Assembly: GCA_021234155.1 (NCBI GenBank)
Contig: JAJEKV010000005.1
Span: 13,805,449 to 13,869,448 of the forward strand
DNA length: 64,000 bases
Origin: Isoetes taiwanensis
Lineage: Eukaryota > Streptophyta > Lycopodiopsida > Isoetales > Isoetaceae
Reading direction: 5' to 3'
Shown: piece after piece, positions 1,775 through 58,210 of the stretch
How positions within the stretch are numbered: position 1 is the stretch's first letter
Layout: each line of letters opens with the position of its first letter
Notes under the pieces: generated by a model
Seen by the model: the letters and a program-made list of their open reading frames with translations, nothing else
Told to the model about the DNA's origin: nothing
Database searches by the model: none
Position numbers and translations under genes: made by a program

Positions 1775-2110
1775 TTATAAACCTAGTTGGAGATTGAGAT
1801 GAGACGATCTGTTTGCCATATGTCTGATGAAGTCAACGCATAAATTGTCGTCTTCAACTATTGAGGTTGTGCCTGAGTAACCCAAGCAAATTTGTTGAAG
1901 GACAAAATCGATTCTGGCAGGCTTGATGTCAGTAGACAGGTACCAGGGTATTCCTGTGTGGAAAATTATAACTGGACTGCTCTGATCTGAAGCTAGAAAT
2001 TGATGCTGTATGCGGCTGTTGAGGTGTCGTTGGGCTTGGGTAGGTCTGAACCAGGGGGCAATGCTCATCTTCTCCTGTCTTAATCGGTGTGCATCCCCTC
2101 CTATCTTCAT
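1775..2110 (-). mobile_element. Possible Ty1/copia RNase H fragment
   Basis: A 111-codon minus-strand frame contains SIVEDDNLCVDFIRHMANRS followed by SHLNLQ. The spacing resembles the copia RNase H signature, in which a (Y/E)EDNxxC(I/V) motif is followed about 10-15 residues later by RSKHIDL. Upstream HTGIPWYLSTDIK could correspond to the segment before the motif. The characteristic KHID is degraded to SHLN. No integrase, reverse transcriptase or LTR was found beside it. It is best regarded as a decayed piece of a retrotransposon; chance resemblance remains possible. Confidence 0.3.
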
Positions 2111-2479
2111 CTAAGCAATCACTGAACTAGCAAAATCAACAAGCCCTGTATAAATCTTGACTAAAGGAATCATTGTGGGCTGGAAAGATTGATGCAAAAA
2201 TCGCTACAATTCGATTGTTGCAGAACTGGCTGGGCTTAGGCTTTGTGCTGATGCTGAGATGCTACATGGTTCTATGAGCGCCAAGGTGCTTAGCTTGTCC
2301 GAACTAGCGAGGCGGTGCAGAGAGAACTTGGAGTGGCATATATTCTATTGCCAGAAGGTGGTGAATATGGGAGACATCTGACGAAACTAGCCTATATACT
2401 GGCAATGGGTCCACATCCCCTCCACATCGTCTTAAAGCTTGTTGAAAGGAGAAACGTGCATGGAATAATTTAAGGGCTA

Positions 2480-3010
2480 AACTTAGCTATTTGGCAATTT
2501 TTAGCATATTTTCAAAAAAAATTGGCTAAAGTAATTGAAAAAAATTGGGAAAAAAATAATAATTTTAGCTTAACTTTTTTCGGGACTATACCAACCCTGG
2601 AGCTCTTTAGCCAAACGCTAGAAAGTAAGAGAGTGAAATTTTGTATTGTTTAGCTAAACCATAGAAACTTTTAAAATGATTTTTGGGTAGCTAACATCAT
2701 TCTAGTTTATATGAAATATATGATTAGTAGTTTAGTTTCTAGCATTATGAATTAATTTGAGTCCTAGACTTTGCTAGTTAGCATTATTTTAGAATGTTTT
2801 CACAAAGAAAATGACCAAAATAAGTGGAATATATTGAAAACAAGTATAGTAATTTGGCTTGATATTTTCTGTTGGTCACACCATAGAAATTTTTGGGATG
2901 ATGTTTGGGTTAGTTTAGCTAAACGCTAGAAAGTATGAGGAAAAATATGTACAATTTAGCTAAACCATAGAAAGTTTTGGGATTAATATCGAGCAAGTTT
3001 AGCTAAAGTC
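2480..3010. repeat. AT-rich region with repeated TTTAGCTAAAC-type blocks
   Basis: Blocks containing tttagctaaacgctagaaag followed about 40 bases later by tttagctaaaccatagaaa occur around 2,600-2,670 and again at 2,910-2,980. Related partial copies lie between them (for example caccatagaaatttttgg near 2,880). This looks like a diverged direct duplication of roughly 300 bases. The core tttagctaaa is itself nearly palindromic. No coding function is visible. Confidence 0.6.
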
Positions 3011-3220
3011 ATTCTAGCTAACAAAATTTATTCCCTGGAAATGTGCAGGTTGATTTTCCAGATGAAATGTCCAAGAGTATGGATTTGTATAGGTGCAAGA
3101 TGAGGAAGGTCACTTACTTCAAGCAATATCTCGATACATGCTTTCTTAATAAGTTTTGGGATGTCATTGTTTTGAAAAAGATCAAAACAACACACTATAA
3201 AGGCCAGATTAATCCCATAC

Positions 3221-3545
3221 TTGCCTGCAGCCCATACCAGCATGTTAGCACATTTTCCTATAAAGAAGCATAGAATAGTTGCATCCATTCAAACTGGTGC
3301 ACACTGCCTCAGAATTGAAAGAGACAAATGGTGGAGACATGAGGAGCGTGAAAATCGGATATGTGAATGTTGTCAGATGGGAGCCAATGAATATGAATGC
3401 CAAAATTTTCAAATTTGCCCATCGTTTGCGACTGTACAAGCATGATATGTTGACTTGAGTACACGTAATCAGCCGCTGTATTTGCCCTTGCAGACGCTTG
3501 TAGTAATGACAGATCATCCTCTATCCTGGTTTTCAGCAAGTGGGA
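3221..3545 (+). mobile_element. LINE-like 3' coding end (cysteine-rich C-terminus of reverse transcriptase ORF)
   Basis: The plus-strand frame reads HRIVASIQTGAHCLRIERDK, then WWRHEERENRICECCQMGA and a degraded tail. The layout of RxGAHxLxxExxxWW, then R.CxCC, matches the zinc-binding C-terminal region of plant LINE polyproteins. Positions 42,080-42,300 hold a second copy beginning MIASIRTGAHPLQI, with related wording and different decay. No upstream reverse transcriptase core is visible, as expected for 5'-truncated LINE copies. Assignment rests on motif layout only. Confidence 0.45.
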
Positions 3546-3821
3546 TGAACTATCCCCCTTTTTTTAAGGATAAAATTTATTTAATATGACTCAAAATACA
3601 TGACGAGCGATATAGGAGAACATTTGTCCAAACCAACATACTCAAACGATGGTCCAATATCACATAAATACACTTTACATACTTCCTCACGGAAGGACTA
3701 TATCCTGAGTATCTGCAATGTGAAGTGTCCTTTTCCAGATAGTTGCTCTAAGTGGTTCTTTCAGATTGGATGTGTGGTATATGAGATGTACAGTTTGTAT
3801 CTGAACTGAGGAATCAATGCA

Positions 3822-3870
3822 CCCGTTACGACCAAAGCTCGGGGGGCGGCTCAGAGGATTTGCAGAGATG
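3822..3870 (+). repeat. Short repeat shared with 31,200-31,246
   Basis: The run with ggctcagaggatttgcagag atga, preceded by a gttacg...aagctcgggg block, is found again almost identically at 31,200-31,246. There it lies inside an LTR-like unit. Here it ends where a MITE-like terminus (gggtaaaagc) begins, so the MITE seems to have inserted into or beside an older repeat copy. Confidence 0.7.
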
Positions 3871-3892
3871 AAGGGTAAAAGCATGCTAGGGT
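3870..3892 (+). repeat. MITE terminus (single end)
   Basis: The sequence gggtaaaagcatgctagggt gt matches, with one change, the 22-base terminal inverted repeat of the complete MITE at 47,130-47,450. No matching right end was located downstream, so this copy appears truncated or disrupted. Confidence 0.6.
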
Positions 3893-4239
3893 GTCATACA
3901 TTAGTTCTAAATTCATGTACTATTTTGCACTAGAAAACCCATTTTTTATGTAATTTTGAATGTATGGTAGGAGGCCACGTGCTTGTCGTTATATATTTAA
4001 AAAAGGAATATATTTGATTGTTTGTCATCATGACATGAAGTGGCCCGGCAGTTGTTCTGTGAAATTTTGGGCACAATCACTTTGGATTCCCTCCGATCCA
4101 AGCAAATTCCCTTCAATCCATCCGAAAAGCAAACAAATTCCCTCAATTCACGGTCTAAGAATCTAAAACAAAGAAAAAAATTTCAAATTCTTGCGGATCT
4201 TTGCATGCATATCGGTTTTTCATAGTAGTAGTAGTGGCA

Positions 4240-5000
4240 TGGCACAAGAAAATCAAAGTATGAAACATATGCAATTACTCAATGATGTCCAAAATGAGGA
4301 CGGTGATACCGAAATCGACAAAGGGAAGCGAAAATGGTTGAACAAGATACTCTAAATGACATCTTGAATGAAGTGACAGAGAGTGATCTTGTCAACAATG
4401 AGAATGGCGATCATATTCCGTACTTCACCAAAAAATCAGAAAAGAGCGAAAAGGTTGTTGAATGCTTTAGAAATGAAGCCAGTTCTCTATCTCCTGGTGA
4501 AAGAGAGGTATATTGGTTTCGGGATCTTGCAAGATAATGGGCTCTTGGGATTGTTTAAACACAATGATTGGGCTACCTTTAGAAGCGGTGGTGAAACATT
4601 CATTGTTACAAAATCTCTCAAAGATGGATTAGAAGAGGTTAAATCTTCTAATAGCAAAGTGACAAGTTGGCAGATAAGCACTCTGTTTTATCCATGATTG
4701 TTGGGAAAAATGGGGAAGCAAAAAGGAGTTGCTTCAAAAATGTTGAACTGCCATCCTCGAAATTTGTCATACGCTGCAGGCAGAAGAAAGAGAATGAAAA
4801 TTGCAGGTCCAACTATATGGGCATTAGCGGTGAAGAGAAGATCGATTGTTTGGACGAAGACACAAAGCAATTAGTCATCCAATTTTGGTTAAACAACACC
4901 AAGGTTTCACCTAAATACTGGGATGTAAGAAAGAAAGGCATCGTGCAATCCAGTTTCTTGATATACCACAGTGTATTTCATTCTTTCATCGTGTGAAATG
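4240..5000 (+). pseudogene. Transposase-like gene, copy A, N-terminal part (broken)
   Basis: This is the first recognisable part of copy A. An ATG at 4,240 starts MAQENQSMKHMQLLNDVQ, followed by frameshifted charged sequence. The informative segment is QFWLNNTKVSPKYWDVRKK (about 4,880-4,940). It aligns with SFWDTNTRVSPNAKDVKLRR in copy B (minus strand, near 28,700): W, NT, VSP and DV keep the same spacing. After the DVRKK block a frame shift leads to a FLDIPQCISFFHRVK-like piece, corresponding to the HYPEDT segment of B. At least three frames are needed, so this is non-functional. The superfamily is not one I can name with confidence. Confidence 0.55.
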
Positions 5001-5394
5001 CTTCTTGATCCCTCATGCATATGTTTTTATTGGAATTTATAGTATCTTCTTTGTTTTGATGTATGAATGCTTTCTAATGACTGATCTATTATTTATGTAT
5101 TCACTTTTACTTACTTTTACATATGCAATCACCTTTGTTGGTTTGCTTACATTTATTGACCATGTATATTACACTAAATCTTCCTTTCTTATTTATGCAA
5201 AGACTCCAAAATTCTTAACCAATGTACGATTAGATATTTGCATAATATTGTATGTTATACATGTCTATAGAGTACATATCTTGTACCTGGGACTTCCAAT
5301 AGTGCCTATGGACTTCAAGAATTTACTCTAGAACATTAATATGCTCTAGGGCATGAATGTACCCACATTTTCTACTTTATCCTTACACACGATT

Positions 5395-5580
5395 TAATGT
5401 ACATGTGTAATGTGTATTCGTTGTCCTTATGTATATTGTAAGTACATTAAAGTACATATGAGTACATATGAGTGCATATGAGTACATCTGAGTTCATATG
5501 AGTACATCTGAGTACATATTAGTACATTATGAGTACATGTTAGTACATTTTGACTCCGCATGTACTCAATTGCACATACA
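5395..5580. repeat. Degenerate tandem array of AGTACAT(ATG) units
   Basis: The motif agtacatatg and variants (agtgcatatg, agtacatctg, agttcatatg, agtacattatg) recur about every 10-11 bases for some 130 bases, with looser copies at both edges. The array sits between two coding pieces of copy A, so it may lie in an intron of that element. A similar reverse-orientation cluster (aatgtact) occurs at 16,290-16,500. Confidence 0.8.
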
Positions 5581-37956: not shown

Positions 37957-39339
37957 TGGTATTTTTCTACAATCTTTTGATCTTTTAGAAATGATCAACC
38001 ATAGCTCGTAAACGCCAGCTTGTTTTTCTAGATTATTTGATAACTTTTCCTGCTCCCAATAATCATGATTTATCTATTCAGGTCATTCAACACATTAGGG
38101 CAGATTTGGGGTCTCAAATTCCACGTCAGATTTCTTATTCTTCTCCCCAATGCCATGTAGATTACCTACCCTTCATAGTTATAGATTCTCACGGATTTCG
38201 AGAGATTGCACATTTATTGTCCCATTTTCACATATTAGAAACAAATAAAAAATATTTATGGCATTAAACCATCGCGACTACGACTAATAATGATGGCTTA
38301 TTGACATTCACGAGGCAAAGGAATTTGAATATAAAAAAGTGATGGTTGATATTGAAAGGAGGGCGTTGATGATATCCATTCCTCATTGAGAATGAAACAA
38401 GCTTGAGATGCTCTATCGGACTTGTTCCCATATATATAGCGAATACATCTCAAAGAACAAGATGCAAAGAGGTTTGTGGAAGCCCCTAACAAAATCATTT
38501 AAGCTCATATGGATGCACTTAGTACATGCATATACTATGGGTGCATGCACCTCTCAGGGCGCATGCACTTGGTTTTGTTAGAAATGGGACAATTATGAAG
38601 TGAACAAGGCATGGAGAAATCCCGTAAGCATCCAAGGTAGCTTTTTTCATAGAAGCACTGATGGAGGAAAAATAATCACCATCCCTCTTAGATATATGAC
38701 AGAATGGAGATATGATTAATAGCTATGTCAAAATAACTTATTGTGTTGAAGAGGAGGAGATCACTGGAATAGCATCGATCACAGAAGTACCCCTTTAAGG
38801 AAGGGGAAATGTCCATGAAGATGCTAATAAATGCCATTATACTTTGCAATGCAAAGGGTTTATACATTCTTGAAGTACAAAGGTTATGGTGTTTGTGTTT
38901 AGATACCTCTAATACAAGAAGTCTTTGACTACTTTTCACAACAGATTCCTTTAAAAATCTATTGCTATTTAAATTATAGCAAAAATGAGTCTTGAAACTC
39001 TTTTAGTAGTAGAAGAACTCTTTGACTAGTTATCCATTTGATGACCATTTTTTAAGAAAATATGATATATGACATTCTTATATGCAAACATTCATAAAAT
39101 TTATGAACATTGAAGGTCAAAGCCATCCTTGTTTAAAGAGGATCATATGATGCAAAAATCTTCATGCACTAAGTAAATTACATATAAGAAATTAGCACAG
39201 TGTGATCCTTTAAATTAAAAAGTAAATAGAAACACAAATATTGAACTTACAACTTAGCGTAAACAAACAGTATTTTATTTATACTTTTTAAAACATATTT
39301 TAATGTTATTTTTGTATAACATAACATTAAGATGGAACA

Positions 39340-40330
39340 TAGCAAATTTGTATGGCGTGACCTACTTTCTTGTTTGCTGTTAAATTATAAACACAAGTAC
39401 CCATTCAATAGCCTCCCATTTGCATGTGAAGTTCTAAGCCTATTTCAAATAGCAAACACCTTTTTAATAAACCAACACTTTACATACTAACACTTTACAC
39501 TTTAAATAAGATATTTCTTTCTTTCCTTTTACTTGAAAGCTATTTTTTTTTCAAGATGGATCACACGAAGCGAATAATACATATGCAAAAAAGGGACACA
39601 CACTAAATTAGCATGGTGTGATCCACTTTCTTATTTGTTGTCAAATTAAAATTAAACACAAGTACCCCTTCTCATTTAATGCTTTACCACTCCAAGTGCA
39701 TAAAGTTATTAGTCCTTTTCAAAGAGCATATCTTTTTTTAAGAAAGATCACATCAAGCGAATAATACATATGCAAAAAAAAATAGAACACAATCATTTCA
39801 CATGGTGTGATACGCTTTCTTGCTTGTTGTCAAATTAAACTTAAACACAAGTACCCCTTCCTCTTTGCATCTAAAATACTTTACCAACTCTATTAGTACA
39901 TAAAGTTATTAGCCCTTTTCAAAAAGCAAACACTTTATCAATAAATGAGCACGTCACATATCCACACTTAACTTCAAATAAGACACATATATATTTCTTT
40001 TATTAAAAGATAATCAAAGTAATTTTACTATAGGAAGTCATCTTTTTCCAAGAAGATCACACCAAGCGAATTTTGTATAAGCTAAAAGGTTGGAATATAC
40101 TAAATTCGCATGGTGTGATCCACTTTCTTGTTTGTTGTCAATAGATAATAACACCAAGTCCCTCATCAATAGTCTCCCATTTGCATATAAAATATGTATC
40201 ATTCCAAGTTATATTATGTTTTATGAACTAAACTTTTTCAAAGAGGATCCCAAAGCAAAATACAAATACTTAATCAATAAGCCAACACTTTACCAACAAC
40301 CAAAGCTTTATTAAATAAGATTTTTATGTT
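39340..40330. repeat. Four-copy diverged tandem repeat (~200-310-bp units)
   Basis: Each unit begins (c)atggtgtgatccactttctt gtttgttgtcaaatta and continues aacacaagtacccctt, then a short variable part, ttattagcccttttcaaa and caacactttac. Copies start near 39,354, 39,614, 39,799 and 40,110. Between units lies gatcacaccaagcgaataa tacatatgcaaaaa. Its first part is the inverse of the unit start (cgcttggtgtgatc), so each unit is bracketed by inverted motifs. Confidence 0.85.
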
Positions 40331-40459
40331 ATTTTATCAAACCTAACAATGTTTCCATATGTGACACTTTGAGTTAACTGATCCAAAGGCTCATGAAAGC
40401 GACATTTTATACAATATGTCTTTGGAGCTTTTGTGTCGTGGCATTAGTAAACACCTCTA

Positions 40460-42055
40460 ATGGAGCAAATATTTTGTAACTCATTTTTTCAACAACCTTG
40501 GATGCACGTCTTATCAAACATTTCTTCATTGCAAGGACACCATTCTCACAACTTTGAGGCTTGCACAATTCGCTTAAAAGAGGTCATGGGACGACTTTCA
40601 AGCTCGGCTCCCACAACTTTACAACGTAAAACTAGATGCCCATTGCCCTGAATGTATATCTTGAATAGTTCTACCTATTCATTGCGTATGAATGTCGCTC
40701 CGACGATGTAACTCCATAGTCACCCTTCGTTAAGGATAGCATTCTCACTCACGAGCCTATGGATAGATATCCTTCCACCGTCATGCCTTTATTGTTTTGT
40801 AAGTGATGAACTGCAGAAGCAATATAGGAGTACTAGGAGCAATGATGGACGCAATTAGAGATACAGATCGGTCATTGAATTGTAAGAATGAATGGCATGG
40901 AGCAATACGATGAATGGGAAGAGCTGAAAAGTAGGAAAACTTCAGAATGAAAATTTGGGTAGTAAAAACATGGCATAGCGTAACGTTTGCTTGTCATTTA
41001 TCGACTCGCCGTTGTTGCTTAACTCTATGCTTCGCCCATAAAAAAACACGCACACTATTGGAGACTTGGATTCCAAATGAAGAGTGAAGGCGGAGAGGAT
41101 GTACATAGCGGCGCTACTGTGAACAATGGAAATCTTGGTGCCAAAATTTGATAAGGTGGTTGGTGCATGTGGGCATGTGCACAGTAGGCAGGAAAAGTAG
41201 CCATTATTTTATGATTTTCAAAAAATGCGGGCCATTAATGTGGTTGCAATGAATGCACAAACATGTCCTATGAAATTTCGCCATGTGGATGCCAAGTAAG
41301 CCTGCTCCTCTTTCTACTTGCCAACTAATACTGACTTTGGAAAAAAATGCGCAAACATCATTGGTCGTGAGAAACATGACGTGGAATTCTGGCATCCAAG
41401 TTATGGGCCATTTTGAGACCCCAAATCCGCCCTAATGATACATTCATAGAAGACTGTCTAAAAAGTGTCTCACCGTCTATCCCTAAAGAGTATTTATATG
41501 TATATTTATTCAAATGGACTCACACCTGTCAATTTAACTTTTTGTAATATGTGATCTCTTTTGACATACTATAAGAATACAGAAGTGGATTTGATATTTA
41601 TATCATATCTTGGACATCTAGAATGAAGTTGAGCGGTACAAAAAGCCATTTTAGCTCGAGCATTTGAGGTAAAATCCATAATCCCCTTCCAGATTCTTCT
41701 GTAGGAGACATGTTTCTTACATTTACAGTGCGTAGCACTCGACTGCCACATTATCTACTTCTAGAAGAGAGTTGGTATGGGCAATGAGTGTCTCCCAACA
41801 TGGCTTATACAATGGTCATGGGCCCGCAGCGCCTCAAAGCATATTGGAAGGCGAGGCGAGCTCAATAGTTCTCCCAATGAAATGTGCAGAACACATGTGC
41901 ATACAGGTGGAAACTAAAGAGGATCACCATCACTTACTACAGTACTTTGATGCTTCCTCAGCAAGCTTTAGGATACTAGTGCCCTAGAATAGGTCAAGAC
42001 ATTATAATATCCCACTTCAAGTCAATCCCATGTTTACATGGGGTCCACAGCACTA
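40460..42055. other. No supported gene
   Basis: The frames at 40,460-40,651 and 41,772-41,987 are short with no recognised motif. Nothing else stands out. Confidence 0.4.
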
Positions 42056-42540: not shown

Positions 42541-42919
42541 ATAAGTTCACACTAATTACAAAATGTATTAAAACAAGATTGCAAATTTAGCGGGAGTGTT
42601 GCAGCACTTCCGTTCCAAAGATTCCCTTTTAAAAGACACCATGCTCCTAAAATTGAGGTCTGGTTTGGTTTGGTTTCCCTGCGTTTTGGGTAAACATTAG
42701 ATCACAACTTTGTTTTTGTAAAAAAGGAAACTTAAAACTGGCAAAATATAGACATGAATATAAAATCACTGAAAGCAAGATATCAAAAACACTAAAATAG
42801 AGAAGAAAGAATATTATTATTATTTTTTAAATATTTTAGTACATCAATTTTGGCAATATTTTATAGCTAATAATAAATAATTTAGCATGAAACACGTGAA
42901 AGATCCAGATCATAGTCTT

Positions 42920-45150
42920 CGTCATTTTTCTTGTTGTCCCAACATCATCTTTCTCTATTGTCTTCTCCCTTTGTGGTGATTTACCACGAACTATTTCTTC
43001 CTTGTCCTTGGGAATAGTAGTTAGAGCTACTTCTTTCAGCTCTGCAAAGGTGGCTTCATCGTCTAAAGAGCCTGTAAAAGGAGGCTATATCTTTGAGGAC
43101 GTCATCTTACCATAATCAGATGAAGATTTGGCCTTTAACTCTCGATTCTCGCCTGGTAGAGTAGGTAAGGCAGCCAATCTCATCTTCACAAAGTTCACAG
43201 CCTCCTTATCAATATCCACGGCTACATAATTGTGACCCTTCTTAAGTGCACAGACGATGGTAGTACCAGAGCCAGAAAAAGCATCAAGCACCCAATCTCC
43301 TAGACGTGAGAACATGTCAAGAAGATAGTTGATGAGTTTATGTGGTTTCTGATAGTGATTCACTATGCTGCCTTGTGCACTTGGGTCCTGCATTTTTTGC
43401 AACACCGCTAGAACCCTAAGACATTAGAGAAATTCTGGCAGGCTGCAGTGTTGAAGTGTTCCATGGTTCTCTTCCCGTCAAAACTTCAGTAAGCAACATG
43501 GAGATATTCCACCTTGCTGAGCAAATTGGGTCCTCCACCATGGTAATCAATATTAATTTTGTACCTACAAAAATATTAGAGGTACAGTTAGCAACAAAAA
43601 CAAAATAAGGAAACAAAAAAAATGGGACTAAAGATTCCCTATTCCGGAATAAGAAACGTAAGTAAATAGGTCAGCACTTAACCAAGTCCAACTACATACT
43701 AGATAGAGATAAGAAAGTACAAAATAACTGTATTCCAGAATAAGGACTTACCAGACCCAGTTTTCATATCCTGCCTGTATAGGGGACTCGAAATGATTTT
43801 TATATGTGGATTCCACTAGGCGAACCTGCATGGTATAATGGAATACAACGAAATGCCAGTGTTTGGCTGTTGTGATTTTCTTGATGTCGTCGGCAAACAC
43901 ATTAAACTCCGAATTTTTGAACGGCTGGTCGTCATAGCGGCTGTCTTTTAACTTAAAGCCATAAGGCAGGTCTGTTATGACCAACATGAAGTCCTATGGC
44001 TTTACAGTCCGACTAGTTTCATGTCTTTGCTCTTCAACTCCCCGCGCTCAGACATGGTAAATATTTCATTTTGGAGATCCCAAATCTGCACATGTAAACA
44101 ACAGGTTAGCTTTGTGGACAACACAAAATTTGATAGAGCCGAACAACAAAATTTTAGAACATATTCTTATTTTGAAATACAGTTCATGCCGATCTTGTCA
44201 TCTATAAATGCTAGATGAAACCAGTTGTCATGGCTAATGAGTGACTGCCTTTTGTTAGCCTCGTCATATTTAAGACGGCATTTAATAGCACATGCCTCCT
44301 TCAACCCCAATGAGTTTGTTGGTTTCTTGAGGTCCTCTCCGTGCTTTTCGTTGAAGATTACATATTCTCTGTGCATAAACCTGATCTTATTGACGAAGCT
44401 CATTTTCAATTTATACTCGTTGTCAACATTGTGAGTGTTGGCAATGATTTTGGCTTCTTTATCAGTAAGGCCACAGTAAATAGCACAGAGGACGGAAAGG
44501 TACCTCGGGTTCTTCTTCTCTTTATAAAGTTGTCTCCTTGCCTTAAAGCTGTTGTTACCTCCCAGGACATAATCTATGTAGGTGTCTGCATTTTCTCTAT
44601 CATAGTCCCAGGGGTCTGTGCATTGCTCCCTGTTAACGAGGACATATTTTTGCTCCTTATTCTCGTCCTTCCGCGTTCCTTAAGTGGTGCGTGAGATCTT
44701 GTGAACCCTGGAAGTGGCCTCTCACAAGCTTCATTTTTTGGGTGCAGTCTCATGCATGTGACTGGTCGATATATGACCCCCTGCATGAACTTTTCTCTAT
44801 TTATTTCCTCCATTCTTTTGGAGGTCTTATCCACTTTCTTCTCTCTAATGGCGACCCAGATGCTTTTCCTTTTCCCTTCCTTTTCTTTGCTTTCCTTGAG
44901 GGCTTCCACCACTTCCAATTGCTGCACCTTTCTTTTTTTTCGGTCCCTTAGCAGAATTGTGGCTCTTGGTCTGCTAAGTTTTTTGGGTTGCTGCTTTTTC
45001 ATCTCCTCTGAACTTTCTTCTTCTTTATCCTAGCTTGAAGTACCAGCAACAGGGGACCCTTCATCTTCTTCCTCATGCTCGGACTCGCTGATAGTGAAGT
45101 TCTTGTTGTGACTTGAACAAATCCTCGAAATGATGGCAGGTAGGCTTTCC
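42920..45150 (-). pseudogene. Beta-class amino-methyltransferase (N6-A/N4-C type) gene remnant
   Basis: The minus strand gives, in order: an acidic/basic N-terminus (SESEHEEEDEG, then EEMKKQQPKKLSRP; 45,100-44,850); RENADTYIDYVLGGNNSFKA and KEKKNPRYLSVLCAIYCGLT (44,630-44,460); and KEACAIKCRLKYDEANKRQ, then DNWFHLAFIDDKIGMN (to about 44,180). Next are a probable intron ending acatgtgcag, then MLVITDLPYGFKLKDSRYDD (43,987-43,930, motif IV-like DLPYG), a KHWHFVVFHYTMQVRL block, and after an intron YHGGGPNLLSKVEYL-type sequence (43,560). The end is SRLGDWVLDAFSGSGTTIVC, then GHNYVAVDIDKEAV (43,300-43,190), the SAM-binding motif I. Motif IV preceding motif I is the beta order. TAG codons at 45,032-45,030, 43,996-43,994 and 43,087-43,085 plus a frameshift break it; frame stays open beyond the last TAG to about 42,920. 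Substrate is unknown. Confidence 0.7.
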
Positions 45151-45308
45151 TTGTTCTGTAATGCAAGGTATATTGTACAAACTTTTGGGTTGCACACTTA
45201 TGATTCTGAAGAAAGCCACATCAATTACTATAAAGCCCTGTGGAGTCTTGAATGACGGCCTCCCAACCTATCCATCTTGCCCGACAACTTCAGAAACTTC
45301 TTTAATAT

Positions 45309-47591
45309 AATGACATATTTAACAAAATTTGGACTTATTCAAATCTAATAAATGTACTTCAGGGATGCCATAATAATATTATATGTATTTTTAGCTCTTA
45401 TTGATTTTAATAATTTAGATAAAAAATATGATACTTACTAAAGTTTAAAGTTGTTTTCTAAACTAATTCTCGGTTTCATCTATTTGGAATTAAATTTTCA
45501 TCTAAGATAACTCTGTATAATTAAAATACTAGTCTTTTCAAAATATTTAAAGAAAGTTTTAGATTGAAATTAATTAAATGATTACGTTTATGTTTAATAA
45601 AAATGAATAGTTTATTATTGATTAAATGTCAATATATTTTATCTCATCAATAATAAATTATTCAATAGTTATTACTAAACCAATAACTTTATATCGTTTA
45701 ATTAATTTCAATCTAAAACTTTTCTTAAAGTATTTTTAAAAATGTAAAAGTTTGTAAATTGTGAAATTCTAATAATAGTTTTAAGTCAATCGCTAGTCAA
45801 ACCATCAGGTTTCATTTAATTATCATGATTCTTAAATTTTGAATCTGTTAAATCACTATAAATTGAAATTTTTATATTCTTGAAATGTCTAATTCTAAAT
45901 AGATTCAAATGAAGATTAGTTTGGAGATCAAGTTTATTCTTTGATAACCATTATAGTTTTAATTGAAAGATAAACTTATATAATTTAAATTTATAAAGAT
46001 TATAACAATCAAGAAGAATCAAACAAAATATATATTCTTATAATGGCGTGCTTGAAGTGCTATCTATTAAATCTGAATAAGTCCAAATTTTGTTGAATAT
46101 ATCATTTAATGTAAACATAGAATCAAAGGGCAAAACACAAAAACCACTAAGGAGAAGATGAACACGGTGAAAAGAAGTGGGGTATCAAGGAACTTATCTT
46201 CTTTTGAGGGTGTAGTTTTGCTTTTACGTGAGCACCTATATGTGGCTGCCCTATATTAGCTAAATCAACCTAAAAATCTTGATGTGGATCATATATTTAA
46301 CCAAAATTACAAAGCCCTTTTGTGACCCCAAAATTTTTCTGAAAGCAAAACTACACCCTCAAAAGAAGATAAGTTCCTTGATACCCCACTTCTTTTCACC
46401 GTGTTCGTCTTCTCCTTGGTGGTTTTTGTGTCTTGCCCTTTGATTCTATGTTTACATTAATATGATATATTCAACAAAATTTGGACTTATTCAGATTTAA
46501 TAGATAGCACTTCAAGCATGCCATTATAAGAATATATATTTTGTTTGATTCTTCTTGATTGTTATAATTTTTATAAGTTTAAATTATATAAGTTTATCTT
46601 TCAATTAAAACTATAATGGTTATCAAAGAATAAACTTGATCTCCAAACTAATCTTCATTTGAATCTATTTAGAATTAGACATTTCAAGAATATAAAAATT
46701 TCAATTTGTAGTGATTTAACAGATTCAAAATTTAAGAATCATGATAATTAAATGAAACCTGATGGTTTGACTAGCGATTGACTTAAAACTATTATTAGAA
46801 TTTCACAATTTACAAACTTTTACATTTTTTAAAATACTTTAAAAAAAGTTTTAGGTTGAAATTAATTAAACGATATAAAGTTATTGGTTTAGTAATAACT
46901 ATTGAATAATTTATTATTGATGAGATAAAATATATTGATATTTAATCAATAATGAACTATTCATTTTTTATTAAACATAAACGTAATCATTTAATTAATT
47001 TCAATCTAAAACTTTCTTTAAATATTTTGAAAAGAATAGTATTTTAATTATACAGAGTTATCTTAGATGAAAATTTAATTCCAAATAGATGAAACCGAGA
47101 ATTAGTTTAGAAAGCAACTTTAAACTTTAGGGTAAAAGCATGTTAGGGTGTACCACTTTTGGAACCTGCAAAAGTACATACACTAGGTACTTCAGAACTG
47201 GGTACTTTCTCAATTTTATTTTCATTAAAACTAGTACAAATATCCAAAATAAAAGTCAATGACGCAATAATATTCAAAGTTAAGATAAAGATAATGCTAC
47301 TAGAGACTAAAATATATATAAAAGTTCTAGAATGTACCTTTTATTGAGATATTACACAGGTACCCAGTACCCAGTCCTGGGTACCTTTTTAGGTACTTTT
47401 TTGGTCACTAAATAATACTTTTTAAGGGACACCCTAACATGCTTTTACCCTTTAGTAAGCATCATATTTTTTTATCTAAATTATTAAAATCAATAAGAGC
47501 TAAAAATACATATACATATAATATTACCATGGCATCCTTGAAGTACATTTATTAGATTTGAATAAGTCCAAATTTTGTTAAATATGTCATT
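45309..47591. repeat. Giant inverted repeat (arms ~0.92 kb) whose arms are themselves fold-backs
   Basis: The left arm 45,309-46,224 pairs with the right arm 46,342-47,591, around a 117-base loop. The right arm is longer only because of the MITE at 47,130-47,450. Identity looks high. In each arm the outer part (aatgacatatttaacaaaat ttggacttattca) recurs inverted at the inner part (46,075-46,110 and 46,459-46,495). So each arm contains an approximately 800-base fold-back element plus a ~114-base linker (46,111-46,224). It is very AT-rich and non-coding. A transcript would form a long, stable hairpin, a possible source of small RNAs, which is inference. Confidence 0.85.
47130..47450. mobile_element. 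MITE, 321 bp, complete with TIRs and target duplication
   Basis: Perfect 22-base ends, gggtaaaagcatgttagggt gt and its reverse complement, are flanked by TTTA on both sides (47,126-47,129 and 47,451-47,454). The uninterrupted version of the site is present in the other arm (reverse complement of about 45,431-45,460: aaactttagtaag), which confirms the insertion. An alternative reading is a 6-base CTTTAG duplication. There is no coding capacity. The interior contains several ggtaccca-type palindromes. Confidence 0.9.
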
Positions 47592-48059
47592 TAATAATAG
47601 TTCCCAGGTTCACAAGCTCACTATTATCATAGCGCTTTTGCCCTGGGCTCTTGCAAATGTGCAGGAAAGTTAATGTACTATATTTCCCCCCTACACCCCT
47701 CATGATAAACCACTATGCCTGGAATTTTTCATAAATTGCGTGCTTTTCAGTTGTCCCGCTTTCCCCCGTGGATGAGGTCGCTTTCACAATCTTCAGCACT
47801 TTCTTTGGAACCTTCTTGCTTCCCCTCAGACACGTGGAAAAGTTGTTGTTAACAAGTCTATAAAGAGTTAAAAGGAAGAGCGGGGGAGTATTCTAGAATA
47901 AAAATTGCTAAACTGGTTGTGCAAAAAGACATGCAAAATAAGAAAAATGAACGAAAGAAGTCTCACAAGCAAGTTTTTTATATGTGCTAAACTCACTAGA
48001 AAGGGCTTATTTAAGATTAAAAATATGCCATTTTTAAGGTTAGATTCTCTTTAAAGTGC

Positions 48060-48310
48060 CGTAATTTATTCGAATACACTTTGCCTTAAGACAAAAAAGG
48101 CAAGAGTGTGGAATTTGCCTTTAAGACAAAGGCAAAGTGTATCTAATACACCTTTTGTCTTAAAGCAAGAGTGTATTCGAAATATTGCATTCTTGAATAC
48201 ACTCTTGCCTTTTGTCTTAAGGCAAAATATATTCCGGAATACACTCTTTTGCCTTTTGTCTTAAAACAAAGTATATTCTAATACACTTTTGCCGATCAAA
48301 GAGATGCAAA
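48060..48310. repeat. Cluster of direct and inverted 25-35-bp repeats
   Basis: The units tgccttttgtcttaaggcaaa and (g)aatacactcttgcc, and their reverse complements, occur at least four times. Neighbouring units face each other (cttaagacaaa...tttgtcttaa), giving several potential short hairpins. Confidence 0.8.
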
Positions 48311-48739
48311 TGTATATTCGAAATAAGAATTAGGATATTGCAATGCTAAATGTCATTACAATCGTACTTCACACACTTACCGCATGATTATCTCCATGCG
48401 ATCGGAATACAACCGGGATTAGAATAGAAGGCGCTCGATCCGCAACTTAAGCTATAAACCCTAATGCGAACCGGATGTGCTCAAATTTCCTTTTTATTAA
48501 AGGTAGGTCATGGACCGCTTCTCTTTCTATATGAAGTAGAATACGACTTGTCCAAACAAATATGGACTAGTGTATTCCTAAATAGCTTTTTTTGTATTCT
48601 CGGTAGCAAATGCACACACATCAAAGTAAGTTACCGTGTCCCCTAACGATGTTGCGCTTGTCAAAGATGGTTAACCGCTGTCATTGAACAAACTTCCACC
48701 ACCTTTTGTTGCCTCTAGTTTCTTAGAGGGAACACTTGG

Positions 48740-51000
48740 CCAAACATGTTTCCTCCCACATACATGCTTCTAGACTCCTACCGACAAGACCCTTGTTGCT
48801 CCTCAAGACACTCGAGTCCAAAGAAGACTACCACCACCTTTCAAACCTCTCCAAGTCTGGTAGGAAGAAGGCTGCCCCCTTCCTTCAATGCATCACCGGT
48901 ATGTAACAATCTTCCACCACCTTTTGTTCCATTGCTCGAAACTACATAGGCCCCACCTCCACGGGTTTTTGAACCGATTTACCTGCACCATTTGTAGTTT
49001 CTCCGCTTCAAGTAGACAAAGCACGCTCAGAAGACTGCGAGATTCTCTACAACTTCTCCCACCATGACTTCACTACAAATGAGGATGATCTTGCATCATC
49101 TACTCCTCTTCACACAATCATTGTGACATATGGGTTTGCGAGAATTCCAACTAGCATGGGGAGATGTTTAAACGAATTCCTTATCAAGATGCTGCAACAA
49201 TATCTGCTACCACAACATCTTATGGCCCATCACCTTCATTTAACACTGTGTCTCTGACTTATCCAGGCACAGCTTCACGTGGTTTGTTTTCCTCTACAAA
49301 CACACTATTAAGAGCAGAGGAGGTCACCCCTAGAGTAGAACTCTCATTAGAAGATGAAAGACTCCAACGAGGGGTAAATCTAGATTATATATTCTCCAAA
49401 TTTTAGTTCCAAAGGAATTCAAGGTGGATTTTAGCTTAAGAGCATGCTCCTCCGTAAGAAGAAGGAATCTTATGGATGAGTAGAAAATGAGAAGACTTCC
49501 AAGAACTAAATGCTGCTCATTGGGTTGCATCAATAGATTCAACATGGCTAAATTAAGTGCAGTTAGAAACAATTACAATTCAATGACATTAGTAGACCAG
49601 AATGCCTATTGGGCTTATCATGTAAGACCAGAACATTACACCTTTTTGTACTAAATTATCCATGAACAAATCTGCCAAGAATGTTTTATGGTTGTTCAAT
49701 GTTTAGGGTCCAACAGAATGTCTCAAATAAGACTGGATAAAAACCCAGCAATTGATGATCACTGTGGGCTAAGAAGAGTTGTAACAATGCATGCCTTAGT
49801 CGCTGTGTCGTGGATGGAGAATTATTTTAGAGAAATATGTGAAAAGTTGCCTAACAACATGTATCATTTGACTGACAACATCACAAAAAAAAAGATGTCT
49901 TCCAAGAATACAAAGAGACTTGCATTCAGTCTCATCACATCTCTTACTCACACTTCACTAGACTGTAAGTGAATTCGGTCTTGTGAAAATTTTTAGGAGA
50001 CATAGAATATCTGTTTGCTCATGATATGCAGAATTGAAGAGTCAACAAGAAACTACAAAGGCAGAGGTCGAAAGGAGTAAGTTCAAGTTCTTTAATCTCA
50101 CACTTGTTTCAAAGAATTGTTTTGACCTGATTTCTTCAACAGATGTTGTGCAATGAAAACTTGCCAGACACCGTGAACAACAAGCAGGAGAAGAAAGCTT
50201 GCTAAGCACAGGAAACAAACTTTTGAACGTCCACTGCAATATGCCTATTATAATTGATGGAATGAATTAAAAAAAAAAGTCAACTCTAACTCATTTCTTA
50301 AACTAAAGATGTGCCAGAGGAATATTTTGTTAAGGTCCACCTTGTAGGAGCTATGGACTTCAAAGGAAGTCTAAAGTACAAATTATTTTTGACGTATCCA
50401 AACTTGCATGGGAATCCCAACCTCACAATTACAATTCGAACAAGATGTCTTAAGTAGCAAGAGCAATTACCACCCGCTTTTCTACACGCAACTGACAACA
50501 CTACTGTGAAGAACAAGAATCAAACACTCTTTGCTTATTGTGCCATGCTAGTGGAGCTAGGGATCTTCAGAAAAGCAAAGCTCGGATTTTTACTTGTAGG
50601 CCACACTCATAATCAAATAGACCAGATGTTGAGCAGATTTTCCGCCAGCGTCTTGGGGTGTTGAAGAAGAAGATTTTGTCTTCCTCGCTTAATTCAATCA
50701 TTGAAAAATTTTTACACTCCCATTTGTTTGTTCACACGCTCTAGTAGAGACAAGTTGTCAATAAGTTGAATGAATTCCTCCAAATCTATTCCAAACACTT
50801 GCTTGATAGAACGTCTTTGAAGCAATTTCATCTCAAAAATCCAAAAAGAGTCGAAGGTAAGAAAAGTACCTCATTGACATCCTTAAAAGCTACTAAAATG
50901 GAATTTCCCAAAGCTTTTAAGTAGTTCTTAGAAGAAGATCGGATGTGGTGGAGAAATTTCTTTCTTAAACAAAAATTGTTATTCAAAACCTAGCTCTAAG
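48740..51000 (+). pseudogene. Transposase-like gene, copy C (IIDGM / GHTHNQID family)
   Basis: A Pro/Ser-rich N-terminal frame (48,746-48,949) and SYGPSPSFNTVSLTYPG (49,200) precede ENYFREICEKLPNNMYHLTD (49,820). The diagnostic part follows: NMPIIIDGMN with a KSTLTHFL piece (50,240-50,300), KVHLVGAMDFKGSLKYKLFL (50,330), and HATDNTTVKNKNQTLFAYCA (50,490). It ends MLVELGIFRKAKLGFLLVGH, then THNQIDQMLSRFS (50,548-50,645). Many uncharacterised eukaryotic proteins share the order (S)IIIDGMDQ..., (Q)xDN...ENKN, GF(L)xVGHTH(E/D)xxD.. F. From memory this is a DUF7869-type family. Stops and shifts make it non-functional. Its C-terminal end is unclear (DRMWWRNFF near 50,940). Confidence 0.65.
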
Positions 51001-51049
51001 ATTCTTGCAGAACCTTTTAGGGCCCGACACCTTCCATCAACCCCACCAA

Positions 51050-53220
51050 GAGGTCCAAACGATGCTACAATAGCAAAGTTTGGGAGGATAGATGAGGACC
51101 GAAGTCGTACCTCGACCCGCAATGAGCCTCCGTAATATCAAAAAATTGCCAAAGATATGTTGATTGCTCTTCCAACTCCGAGGGGGATGACAAATGCCGA
51201 CATTTTGGATAAAGAAAAGTACTTGATATAGTTAAGGAGGAAGGCTTAGTGACTAAACTCAAGATTCATTGACTTGCTTAATCCACAAAATGCTTTTGAA
51301 ATGTAGGTATGAGTTAAAAATTTAGAAACTCAAGAAAAGGGGAAGGTTCAAGAAAGTGGGTTGTAGGGATGAGCTAAACTCTACGGGAAGTGAGTATACT
51401 ATGCTATGATTTCAAATTGAAATCGACAAATCATCTATGCCAGGGATGAACAATTTGTTTAGAAAGGCTTGTAATTACGAGGAAGAGGGACTAAGAAGGA
51501 GTGGTGGTGGCAATGCTTCACCATGTAATTACGCAGGGAAGAGGATGAAGAAGGGAGTGGTCCGTTGATAGTGACGGAGGAAGATAACTCAAGCACTTCC
51601 TCAAGTGACAATGAAAGAAGTGAAGGTGATGAGGATGGCATAATGAATATGATGACGCATCGGGATCCCTCCCAAAGACGCCATCATAATCGAAGTCTTA
51701 GAAAAAAAAAATCAGAATTTTGCATGTGAATATGAAGATTTTATCTTCAAATTTTGAAAATACTACAATTTCTGTTACACTTCACTTCAATTTTTTGTTA
51801 AATATTAGATTTCATCGTGTAGGCATTCAATTCTGACTCCATTAGGGTTCAATCCGCAAGAAGTGGCAAAAAAATAGAAGAAGATGTGATTATTTCATAA
51901 TTCGAAATGAGGGACAATGACGTGGCATAAAATTCAAAATAACTGACGCTCATTAATTCACACTCCCGCAATCTCCACTTTGGTATGCACCACCCGATTC
52001 TACCACAAAGAAGGTGCAAATATATGGCGTCAAAATGCGCGTTTTTGATACACCACAACGTGCTTTTACCCTGATGCACTGTCTGGATGCCCAGGATCGA
52101 AAGCCTAAATGCAATAAAGATGGATGATTGGGCCTTTGGTGAGGCCATTGCAGCCTGGCAATTCGAATCCCCTAGTCTCTCTTTCTGGCAGCATGCGAGG
52201 GCTGCATGATACCTCTCTAATCTTTACTATTTTATTTTAGAGGTTCTAGAACAAAGGAGTTCTTGCACTTTGAGCAAAGACAGTTTTCTCCACTCAGCGG
52301 ATTCTCTTTGTCTGCTGAGGTTTTATTCCTGCCTCTGCAATTATACATGTACTTTCGTGGGATATTGAATAAAGTCTGAGGTCCTTCAAAAAAACAAAAA
52401 AAAAACTAGTAGAAATGCAGGCTTGGGGTGAAGGCTAGGGTGGAGATAGAGAAATTACACTCATGAAGGTTATTTTGACTTGATTGTCACCTCAGTGTGA
52501 CATTGATACTTGCATTAAGACACGAACTGAAAGTTGCTTAGCGCTTAGACTCAAAAGACTAGCAATAGACCATGTGCGATCAAAATACAATTAAAGGTTG
52601 CCTTATTCCAGTCTATTGATTCACATTGCATTCTCAAAGTATTTTAAGGTCCAAGTTAAGGTCAAGGAACTTAGTTGGGCCATTCCAGCAATCATTGCTT
52701 CCATGAATAAACCCTAACCAAACCATGTGGACACATGAGAATGTCACCTGGCATTTTTGTTATGTGAAAAACACTTACATTATATTCTGTGGCCAGAATG
52801 TTAAACATTCCTTAAAACAATCACTGCCACATGTCAACACACAATTAGACTAGAGGAAAAGATGCAATGTAAGTGGTTTTTACATAGTATATATGATACG
52901 AAGCTAAAGTTTGGCACATGCCAATGAAGAAAGAAAATTCGCTTTATGGTACACATAAAGTGATGTTAGGATTGAGAACTTGGGGTTGAGAACTTGTAAT
53001 TTATTTATTAATATTCACTTGATATTAGTTAATCATTAGATTAAGCTTGTCCTTGTTTGCTTATGGTTGTCCATGTGATTGTGCTACATATTCTAAACAA
53101 GGTGCTTCCCCTAGACAACCTCGATCATTGGATCCCTCCATCTTACCAAGATCAATGTTAGGGGCCTCTATGCCTCTCGTTTCAATTATGAAAGAAAAGA
53201 AAGAAAGAATGATTTTTATC
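51050..53220. other. No supported gene
   Basis: Scattered short frames, one of them acidic (51,541-51,650), and a poly-A run (52,389-52,405) after gaataaagt. Nothing I can name. Confidence 0.4.
52049..52072. repeat. MITE terminus (right end only)
   Basis: The sequence acaccacaacgtgcttttaccc resembles the right end acaccctaacatgcttttaccc of the complete MITE at 47,130-47,450, with a few changes. A left partner was not found in the preceding kilobase. Confidence 0.5.
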
Positions 53221-55813: not shown

Positions 55814-58210
55814 TTACTCAACCGATGTAATTGGACACCACCATTCCACGCCAGCGCGACTTATTGAAGTTAACATCACCTTCTTCTTTGCAAATATCCA
55901 GATAGTCCATCCCAACCACACTTTCGATAGGTCTCTAGATGTCTTTGGTTTTACTACTACAAATTGGTGGCACTCCACGTCCGGTAGAAGGTTCATAACA
56001 ATCCATGCCTAGATATTTTGGCCTATCCTTCTTAGGACCAACATAGTGTTTATCCATTGAGGAGGAGCATATGCCTTCACAATGCTACTAATGGTACCAT
56101 CATCTTAAAATGCACCTGACTAATGTTTTCCACTTACTTTTAGGAACCACCCTTCTTTCAGCTTCTTGAGGATGTGTCTACCTCATCCAACAAGTTGATC
56201 ACCTTCTTCCAATAATCTATCAATGCACCCATTAGTCTCATCCGAATTAGTTTGCCAATGCTTGATGTAGTCATTGATGCCATCCTTAGTCAATCCCAAT
56301 TGCTTGACTTCTTGAGCTTTGGTTTTAGAGCTTTTGGTTGACCGGAGAGGTATCATAGGGCTTTGCCATTTGCATCCCCAGTGCCAAATTTCTGCCCCAC
56401 CTCTCCACTTCTCCTCCTGAAGGTCTCATTTTCCATTGCATGATTGGAATCCCTTCTCTCACCCAAAAAGTGAATTGAAGAGGTCTAGAATGACCTTCCA
56501 TGTCGAGCATAACCATCCACAAAACTCTTCCAATCGGGCACTTCTTCTATGATAGATCCTATAGGAGATGGATTTGTACATCCATGAAATATTTCCAATA
56601 GCTCGGGAAAGTTGGTAAGTGTCTGCCGGTCCCCAATACATGACTATATTTTTCCAAACAATGCATCCACATCCTCATGAGTATGTCCCATTAGGAACCC
56701 CAAATTGACTCTTTCAAAATACCCACAAAATTGTTAAGTAGGATAGGAAAGAAAACATCCACCTGTTCTTATTTTGACCAAAGACAATTATCTAGTTGCA
56801 AGAGGAGCTTTTCTCGGGCAGATCTCGAGGTTTAGGCGAGATGTTGAAGCTCAACATGTTCATTAGGTCCATTCCTCCTAAATCTTGCCTTGCTAAACTT
56901 TTCAATACTATTAGGGGTTCCATCCAACAATGCACTATGTAGTGTCCAAGCTAGCCAGGGATCCCAGTAGGTGACCATTGTAACCCTTCTCATAGTTTCT
57001 TAAACACCTCCATGATACTCCCAATGTGAAAACTGGACCATCACTCCACAACTCTAAACCGAAATGGCCATAATAGGTCCGGACTGCCTATGCAATATTG
57101 CCCCATTTGAAATCTGCAAGGGTATGATCTTCCACATGACTTAGGAATGTACTTGAATTGTCGAAGACAAGTCTTCGTTGGTCCATTTTATCATGTATAA
57201 TACATAGATAGTTATTAGGTTCCATTGCGTATAAGGTCCTCCACATCCAATAAGTTGATCTACATGATAGTTGATCCGTCATATATGGTCCTTCATATGT
57301 TCCCTTATCTTTGCCCTTAGACTTGATTGCACAGTCTTATCTAGTGTCTCCTTCAACTTAGCACATAAATTGCACTTGGCAAAGTTGTTTGAAGTTGCTA
57401 TGGTCACATGCTTGAAATGCTTATTCCATAGCCTACTAAAATCAATGGCTTTTGGGATATAGAGGCCACTCCAAGTTCCCCAAGCAATGCATTTATTTCC
57501 TCTAATATGCTCTTTCCTGGGTACAATGGGATGGCAATCTCTTTCAACAATAACTCTACCCCTGCTCATCCTTCTTACTCTTATGTGGCATGTTTTATGC
57601 ATTGAAATCCACATATCTTTCAAATATTTCCTTTGTATAGTTCTTGAGGTAGGCCTTACCAGGCCGTTGTTCCCATGCAATGCAATTTTACTACCATTTT
57701 CATGTCTCTTTTGCCCGGTTATGTGCCAAGAAGAGGTTGGAATTCCATGTATAGCCATCCATGCTTTTGAACATATCCACTTTCTATTCAATGGGAATCT
57801 TTTCTTCTTTTGATCTTTCATCCCCTGAATTGCATAGCCAAATATGGTGTACATGAAATTCCTCCCATCATCACACTTATGTTCCCGATATGTAGCTCTT
57901 GCTCCCACCAACTCCTCTATTGTGAACATTCTAACACAAGAAGCCCAACAACATTCACCTCCTCTAACCTTCATCATAGCTTCGGAGAACAATCATAATC
58001 GACTTGCATCTTTTGGTGGGATAATGTTTGAAAGTTGGAAGTGGCCTCTTGCTACACCTGTGAACATTGTTGACAATGGTTCTACATCTATAGGAAACGG
58101 TAGTTCCCCTCCGCTGAATAACGTCCCTAGGCCATGCAACAATAGTTGGAACCTCTAGTTGCTTCACACAAGCTAGGCATTCTTGTTTTTTGCTCAACCG
58201 TTTTCCTTCC
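55814..58210 (-). pseudogene. Transposase-like gene, copy D (same family as copy C), best preserved
   Basis: The largest frame (57,279-57,992, 237 codons) reads KWICSKAWMAIHGIPTSSWH, HENGSKIALHGNNGLVRPTS and RLWNKHFKHVTIATSNNFAK, with CNLC following. The next frame holds NNYLCIIHDKMDQRRLV (57,190), then, after shifts, VNLGFLMGHTHEDVDALFGK (about 56,690), EVPDWKSFVDGYARHG (56,520) and RPLQFTFWVREGIPIMQWKM (56,470). The end is HQFVVVKPKTSRDL, then KVWLGWTIW and GVEWWCPIT (55,980-55,820). Order and motifs match copy C (IIIDGMN / GHTHNQID) and the wider family. Asp/His-rich motifs suggest metal-dependent catalysis, which is inferred only. At least four frame changes are needed. No TIRs were found. 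Confidence 0.75.

Follow-up and report, generated by a model that had tools for sequence, protein, structure and literature searches.

A decayed transposon with a methyltransferase gene

We examined a 64,000-nucleotide stretch of the Isoetes taiwanensis genome (GenBank assembly GCA_021234155.1, contig JAJEKV010000005.1, forward-strand positions 13,805,449 to 13,869,448), called the window below and numbered from its first letter. On its minus strand lies a gene for a bacterial-type DNA methyltransferase, which an original prediction, made from the letters alone, had placed at 42920-45150 and assigned to a resident nuclear gene family. That interval covers the methyltransferase half of the feature, which continues to about 51806. 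Comparison of copies across the genome shows that the gene is a component of a repeated DNA transposon of about 8 kb with terminal inverted repeats (TIRs), rather than a resident host gene. The element carries a second, divergent gene for a probable transposase with the domain DUF7869. The window copy is a dead member of a family with less damaged members, and its parts are as follows.

42572..51806, minus strand (that of the methyltransferase gene): whole transposon remnant; the alignments of 11 of 14 fetched loci stop at 42553-42579
42572..42596, no strand: 3' terminal inverted repeat of 25 bp, differing from the 5' arm of copy A7 at 3 positions
42947..43570, minus strand: remnant of methyltransferase exon 5, with motif I (DAFSGSGTT) at about 43259-43285
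43751..44005, minus strand: 3' part of methyltransferase exon 4, with motif IV (DLPYG) at about 43958-43972
44010..44021, minus strand: deletion junction, where 0.7-1.2 kb of the other copies aligned there is gone
44025..45306, minus strand: start of methyltransferase exon 2 and most of exon 1
45306-47595, no strand: later insertion of 2.3 kb, of inverted-repeat (foldback) type, splitting exon 1
47602..47733, minus strand: 5' piece of methyltransferase exon 1, beyond the insertion
47734..48686, no strand: region between the divergent genes, whose short repeats line up with the palindrome array of an intact copy
48687..51356, plus strand: remnant of the DUF7869 probable transposase gene, with 857 of 987 reference codons aligned and 21 in-frame stops
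51806/51803: far-end boundary, where similarity stops and intact copies continue for 254-269 bp

The outer 250-270 bp or so of the 5' end have thus been lost, and the sequence missing at 44010..44021 comprises the rest of exon 2, exon 3, the start of exon 4 and introns. The segment at 44025..45306 encodes a charged linker and a ParB-like region (YVLGGN.SFKARRQLYKEK). The search for the 3' TIR gave one match, against none in 100 shuffles. No perfect 14-bp palindrome of the kind described below is left in the window copy. The foldback insertion has nested arms of 507, 166 and 119 nt, in an arrangement that differs in locus L001. DNA matches to the window gene elsewhere in the genome reach 97% identity. 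Recent transposition was rejected as the source of this 97% copy (C944, locus L001): identity continues past the element on the low-coordinate side, which indicates a segmental duplication or an uncollapsed haplotype.

A bacterial-type amino-methyltransferase

Bacterial-type amino-methyltransferases are rare and disputed in eukaryotes. Between 45300 and 42900, the minus strand encodes DLPYG, then DAFSGSGTT, then VAVDIDKEA, so the motif order predicted for a beta-class enzyme, IV before I, is indeed present. The Pfam family PF01555 (N6_N4_Mtase) matched the piece with motif I at E = 7.7e-15 (55.9 bits; cut-off 26.7), in agreement with that class, while the piece with motif IV drew no methyltransferase match from Pfam by itself. 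We searched the whole assembly (1,658,258,908 bases in 1110 contigs) with PF01555 and scored the best 150 of 1444 first-look candidates (a rough count); all 150 lay above the cut-off. The METHYLTRANSFERASE protein of the L009 copy has a frame open across 944 codons in five exons, in which no start codon was found. It matches PF01555 at 65.5 bits (cut-off 26.7) and consists of a charged N-terminal part, a ParB-like stretch and a catalytic domain. In the window 684 of these 944 codons align, with 7 in-frame stops, as anticipated for a decayed copy with better paralogues in the same genome. The interruptions that had been read as introns have GT-AG boundaries at shared positions in other copies. 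These introns, and copies spread across many scaffolds, rule out contamination and place the family in the nuclear genome.

Motif IV had been noted for a D in place of S, with the suggestion of a differing target or of an RNA enzyme. D[LI]PYG and DAFSGSGTT are each intact in 13 of 18 aligned copies, and D-[LI]-P-Y-G recurs in the distant loci F27, F28, F29 and L030. Relative to [DNS]PPY, residues 1, 3 and 4 are kept and residue 2 is changed; SPPY, the motif IV of the N4-cytosine enzymes rotifer N4CMT and Marchantia DN4MT, is absent from the aligned copies, with D-[LI]-P-Y instead. An RNA methyltransferase identity was rejected: the Pfam lists at E <= 10 (from which most matches above about 0.1 had been filtered) held no MT-A70/METTL family, and no match supports an RNA target. 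Among solved structures the best match was CcrM (6pbd, 2.4e-10), followed by the N6-adenine enzymes MboIIA and RsrI; solved N4-cytosine enzymes ranked lower (0.038 and weaker). Because of the D-[LI]-P-Y motif and these relatives, an N6-adenine type is favoured over N4-cytosine, though not settled by such comparisons.

The enzyme has the domain family and motif order of CcrM, its best solved match, and of other bacterial beta-class N6-adenine methyltransferases, from which it differs in its low identity. Its best PHROG match is phrog_67 (5.2e-27), and relatives found by tblastn in phages and plasmids are 24-28% identical (15 matches listed for each, of 314 and 309 records matched). An Azospirillum gene, presumably CcrM-like, matches at 24% identity; its protein of 365 aa starts close to motif IV and therefore has no ParB-like part. 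Searches of bacterial genomes and viral contigs with two short peptide patterns each, an insensitive approach, gave no confirmed relative. The ParB-like stretch matches phrog_1033 at 5.1e-6 in the clade of F27 only, with weak or no matches in other clades, and the region reaches 0.0023 at best, below the cut-off, against Pfam DUF6551. We treat the ParB-like assignment as a lead, not a firm one.

Ends, target-site duplications and unoccupied sites

We next compared the borders of the copies. Eleven window-like copies and the window are alike up to a shared end near 42553-42579 and unrelated past it; among the 14 fetched loci, the alignments of L007 and L012 stop earlier and that of L001 continues. 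Extending the stretches upstream located the opposite end. The ends are TIRs of about 25 bp beginning AACA (AACAAGATTGCATATTAAACGGGAG and kin). When the TIR sequence was scanned in 16 stretches, eight elements had both ends, seven of 8039-8373 bp and one of 4105 bp (L012). We discarded additional 3' matches in B21 and L009 and weak 5' TIR matches in A10 and L003 (8 mismatches, in unrelated positions). L012 has as many mismatches at its 5' end, which we kept because it falls where the aligned element stops.

A perfect 4-bp direct repeat flanks all eight elements (ATAT, TGTG, AATT, CATT, AAAC, GACC, TTAA and ATCC), as called by a script that demanded equality. For A7, A8, A11 and L012 the ends were set while viewing the flanks, and for B19, B20, B21 and L009 the end rule was fixed beforehand. 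Searching the genome with joined flanks gave junction-spanning unoccupied sites for four of the eight, with best identities of 98% (B20), 96% (L009), 94% (B19) and 87% (A7). Match lengths were equal in B20, L009 and B19 and 207 versus 204 in A7; these calls rest on match spans. For the remaining four elements there was no unoccupied site among 40 scored matches.

We identify the family as a transposon because of these shared ends, TIRs, 4-bp duplications and unoccupied sites, together with the coupling to DUF7869 described below. A resident host methyltransferase family with coincidental repeats around it, close to what the original prediction had proposed, would account for the introns, the conserved frames and the many copies; for the sampled copies it is refuted by the same five features, and its likelihood appears negligible. 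Among other element types, a Helitron had first been suggested by a 3' hairpin, and the TIRs and 4-bp duplications speak against it. A Ginger/integrase or MULE type was rejected since no such Pfam match was found, and no reverse transcriptase was listed in the 10 element frames scanned.

Two further observations concern these copies. The L009 element, whose methyltransferase frame is open, sits inside a PPR gene, both of its flanks matching PPR families (8e-16 and 5.8e-19); L009 and L022 are the loci of this PPR-flank element, and its unoccupied counterpart elsewhere is up to 96% identical. An extra palindrome, CGGGAGTGCTGCAACACTCCCG, is found next to the 3' inverted repeat on its inner side; no counterpart was seen at the 5' ends.

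Coupling of the methyltransferase to DUF7869

The divergent gene matches DUF7869 (PF25273) at 1.1e-52 in copy A7 and at 4.4e-51 for an open frame of 987 aa. In a genome search with this profile, we scored the best 150 of 9907 first-look candidates (a rough count). Between the two top-150 lists, 24 methyltransferase-DUF7869 pairs lie within 15 kb of each other versus 0.41 expected, and 22 of them are divergent. A Pfam scan of the DUF7869 frames returned only DUF7869 above chance, with no MuDR or MULE match. The protein has a long variable N-terminal part, CxxC pairs and three conserved, transposase-like acidic sites (the D in VIDGMDQ, LQLDNTTREN and HDQIDQMFS). We infer a DDE/D-type transposase, and only infer it, since DUF7869 has no convincing solved relative. 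The term DUF7869 was not found in the open-access literature searched.

To see how far the coupling extends, we considered 13 loci picked by DUF7869 alone. Methyltransferase sequence was present in 10 (in D24 as a short piece at the stretch edge), including the distant F27, F28 and F29 (L027, L028 and L029), whose DUF7869 proteins share 53-62% identity with the reference over the C-terminal half and 33-38% over the N-terminal half. These three elements span 8277-9568 bp, with ends that start AACAA and duplications CTAC, AGTT and TAGT, found in a search that required a duplication; for F27 and F28, the ends also agree with the points where the alignment of the two elements to each other stops. 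Both genes are evidently kept in distant clades.

Codon comparison of 10 copies (45 pairs, with saturated methyltransferase pairs dropped) gave dN/dS of 0.05-0.40 for the methyltransferase (21 of 45 pairs computable) and 0.15-0.83 for DUF7869 (45 of 45), the high DUF7869 values belonging to close pairs or decayed copies (A11, B23 and the window). Among seven copies, the regional median was 0.08 both for the catalytic part (15 of 21 pairs) and for the DUF7869 core (21 of 21), and 0.07 for the ParB-like part (6 of 21); many methyltransferase dS values exceed 1.5, and the ratios are therefore rough. These values show purifying selection on both element genes, as far as codon comparison can tell. 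In the pair A7-B20 (L007/L015 versus L020), dS is 1.32 in the methyltransferase half and 0.10 in the DUF7869 half, which suggests that halves have been exchanged or recombined between elements. The 4.1-kb derivative L012 (reverse complement, 1405-5509) has both ends and a duplication; most of its DUF7869 gene is lost (152 codons left, 3 stops), while the 704 methyltransferase codons that it keeps contain no stop.

These data bear on whether the methyltransferase is a passenger that acts elsewhere, on host DNA or RNA, and does nothing directly for the DNA of the element, with the palindromes described below belonging to DUF7869 alone, for example as autoregulatory sites. The greater dS divergence of the methyltransferase half in the same copies would fit such a passenger, and the DUF7869 protein, with its variable N-terminal part and CxxC pairs, is a candidate binder. 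Against this, the methyltransferase recurs in 10 of the 13 loci chosen without regard to it, distant clades included, its regional dN/dS is as low as that of the DUF7869 core, and L012 keeps its methyltransferase frame while most of DUF7869 is gone. We regard a passenger role as unlikely.

Group-specific palindromes in non-coding DNA

Perfect 14-bp palindromes, one or more per element, occur between the genes or in the introns of all 11 elements with both ends. Four types were found, counted over the whole genome, inside and outside elements alike.

GTAT-TCCGGA-ATAC: A/B/L009 group; genome count 3720 versus 0 for the reversed control
GTAT-AAATTT-ATAC: F29 and L030-L034; genome count 12556 versus 17 for the reversed control
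GTAT-GAATTC-ATAC: F27/F28; genome count 64 versus 11 for the reversed control
CTAT-GCGCGC-ATAG: L036/L037; genome count 1551 versus 0 for the reversed control

The four types match four groups of an 18-locus FastTree (local support 0.99-1.00), from which L030, L035, L012, the window and other partial copies were left out. The 11 elements hold 91 GTAT-N6-ATAC sites, of which 88 lie outside coding matches; the 3 overlaps compare with 60 expected, given that 66% of element positions are coding. Here 'coding' denotes alignment to the reference by tblastn, and such alignments extend across some introns. The 54.8 kb of the window outside the element hold no such palindrome. In the AAATTT group, flank agreement falls to about 0.3-0.5 a few bases out, versus 0.86-1.0 in the palindrome, while in the TCCGGA group likeness reaches further beyond it; site selection for this comparison allowed up to 3 mismatches and is thereby biased towards the palindrome. 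Clusters hold 38 of the 50 GAATTC-type sites listed. We do not claim helical phasing of the spacing: R was 0.80 in the TCCGGA group, whose spacings were passed on through duplication, and two other groups gave 0.46 and 0.50. The CpG in the middle of TCCGGA is often altered, giving TCTGGA or TCCAGA (22 of the 91 sites, in the 8 TCCGGA-type elements), variants that fit deamination of a methylated CpG and hint that the host methylates these sites.

Where the sites lie also bears on whether a methyl mark might restrain the element itself, by repressing its own transcription or by keeping transposase off its ends; copy number would then be held down, and silencing not escaped. Some bacterial transposons are restrained in this way by Dam methylation, and here the sites stand between divergent genes and in introns. 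However, the outermost 600 bp of the elements hold just 1 of the 91 sites, which makes direct blocking of the ends improbable, and the family is abundant, with 1444 and 9907 first-look candidates in the two rough counts. Taken together, we consider self-restraint quite improbable.

A proposed role for the methyltransferase and the palindromes

A methyltransferase and group-specific palindromes within one element suggest that this transposon puts a chemical mark on itself, perhaps as a way to evade silencing. Non-coding arrays that differ between related elements are what VANC proteins bind in the VANDAL transposons of Arabidopsis (PMC5735166). Most simply, a protein of the element would bind the palindromes that the element carries. 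Overall, we find it probable that the window holds a decayed two-gene transposon whose methyltransferase and palindromes serve its own DNA.

In the proposed mechanism, the palindromes would be bound by a protein that the element encodes, the ParB-like part of its methyltransferase being the most likely binder, and the methyltransferase would place N6-methyladenine (more likely) or N4-methylcytosine on the element's promoter region and introns. ParB binds palindromic parS sites, which makes the ParB-like part the best candidate for the binder; if it does bind them, the methyltransferase would mark the control region of its own element. To this combination of binding by the ParB-like part and marking of promoter region and introns, as read from sequence, we give roughly even chances. 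The mark might in turn counter host silencing or control element expression, a tentative step whose chances we would put below even. Somewhat more doubtful is self-recognition resembling the identity mark of a restriction-modification system, in which a methyltransferase steered by its ParB-like part would recognise parS-like palindromes through clade code words (TCCGGA, AAATTT, GAATTC and GCGCGC) set between like arms and would write an N6-adenine or N4-cytosine mark on the regulatory DNA of its element, enzyme and sites having co-diverged.

Several results weigh against this proposed role. The methyltransferase was not found in 3 of the 13 loci picked by DUF7869, namely L025, where the stretch ends early, L031 and L035; in L035 neither the gene nor a palindrome was found. 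The large difference in dS between the halves indicates that the two genes do not always travel together. ParB-named families score 0.016-0.12 in members outside the F27 clade, unrelated families score equally in the same scans, and no ParB structure was among the solved chains matched to this region; the DUF7869 protein, itself without a convincing solved relative, is a real alternative as palindrome binder. Several top phage matches of the methyltransferase are annotated as N4-cytosine enzymes, and its motif IV is D-[LI]-P-Y rather than DPPY. Among the palindromes, only 53 of 91 sites have the exact clade centre, and 22 are TCCAGA or TCTGGA variants; an AAATTT site occurs once in F27 and once in F28, and the GAATTC type counts only 64 against 11 for its control.

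Comparison with known systems

An analogue in arrangement is VANDAL (MuDR) with VANC, which also has a second element-encoded protein and non-coding arrays of short motifs that vary between related elements (PMC5735166). VANC binds such arrays in non-coding parts of its own VANDAL element, induces loss of silencing methylation, and is not described as a methyltransferase in the sections of that report that deal with it. VANC binding has been measured, whereas palindrome binding here is inferred. The present family differs in its amino-methyltransferase, its 14-bp palindromes with like arms and different centres, and its DUF7869 protein; VANDAL/MuDR elements have 9-bp duplications and a MuDR transposase, whereas here duplications are 4 bp and the DUF7869 frames have no MuDR/MULE match.

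Transposon-borne methyltransferases are already known from retrotransposons and viral Mariners (PMC5890265, PMC3627910). DIRS retrotransposons with a Dam-like enzyme, and the DNMT retrotransposons of Symbiodinium and Klebsormidium, likewise encode a DNA methyltransferase in many copies, with self-methylation proposed (PMC5890265); their enzymes are Dam-like or C5, whereas here a TIR DNA transposon carries a PF01555 enzyme joined to a ParB-like stretch. Viral Mariners are DNA transposons with a methyltransferase gene, but with a Mariner transposase, TA duplications, Methyltransf_26 or C5 domains and an accompanying endonuclease (PMC3627910). Sola2 elements (PMC3627910) resemble the family in TIRs, 4-bp target-site duplications, a long transposase and, in some, a second gene; their duplications are AWWT or AT-rich, whereas TGTG, GACC, ATCC and CTAC also occur among the 11 here.

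Fungal and oomycete DNA transposons carry TET/JBP (fungi) or SET histone methyltransferase genes (HarbingerS, MuDR) (PMC12730594). They too are TIR DNA transposons encoding an enzyme for epigenetic marks, with other enzymes and other transposase types, and the parts of that report on these elements describe no amino-methyltransferase. The N4CMT of bdelloid rotifers is, as here, a bacterial-type amino-methyltransferase in a eukaryote with a link to transposons, but it is a host gene with a chromodomain and SPPY that helps to silence transposons, whereas ours is a transposon gene with D-[LI]-P-Y (PMC8885841). We found no report of a transposon combining DUF7869 with a methyltransferase in the part of the open literature that our search covered, and the main text of the genome paper, whose assembly was built with Nanopore reads, does not contain the word 'methylase' (PMC8566536).

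The 150 scored places, of 1444 first-look candidates, present a bacterial-type amino-methyltransferase as a conserved mobile-element component in a plant genome, with candidate sequence-specific targets that can be read directly from that genome. This makes two questions testable: whether land plants carry transposon-written DNA marks other than 5-methylcytosine, and in what way a transposon's sequence-specific control over its own silencing evolves. Caution is also called for, as annotated plant genes with such domains may belong to transposons and not to the host.

Other features of the window

Copy C944 (L001), 97% similar, lacks about 3.35 kb of the window at 38091-41441. This segment has 26-nt inverted repeats close to its two ends (38093-38118 and 41412-41437) and probably represents an independent TIR insertion. 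At 56518-56718 the minus strand has another DUF7869 remnant, which is more distant (32% identity, E 1.5e-6).

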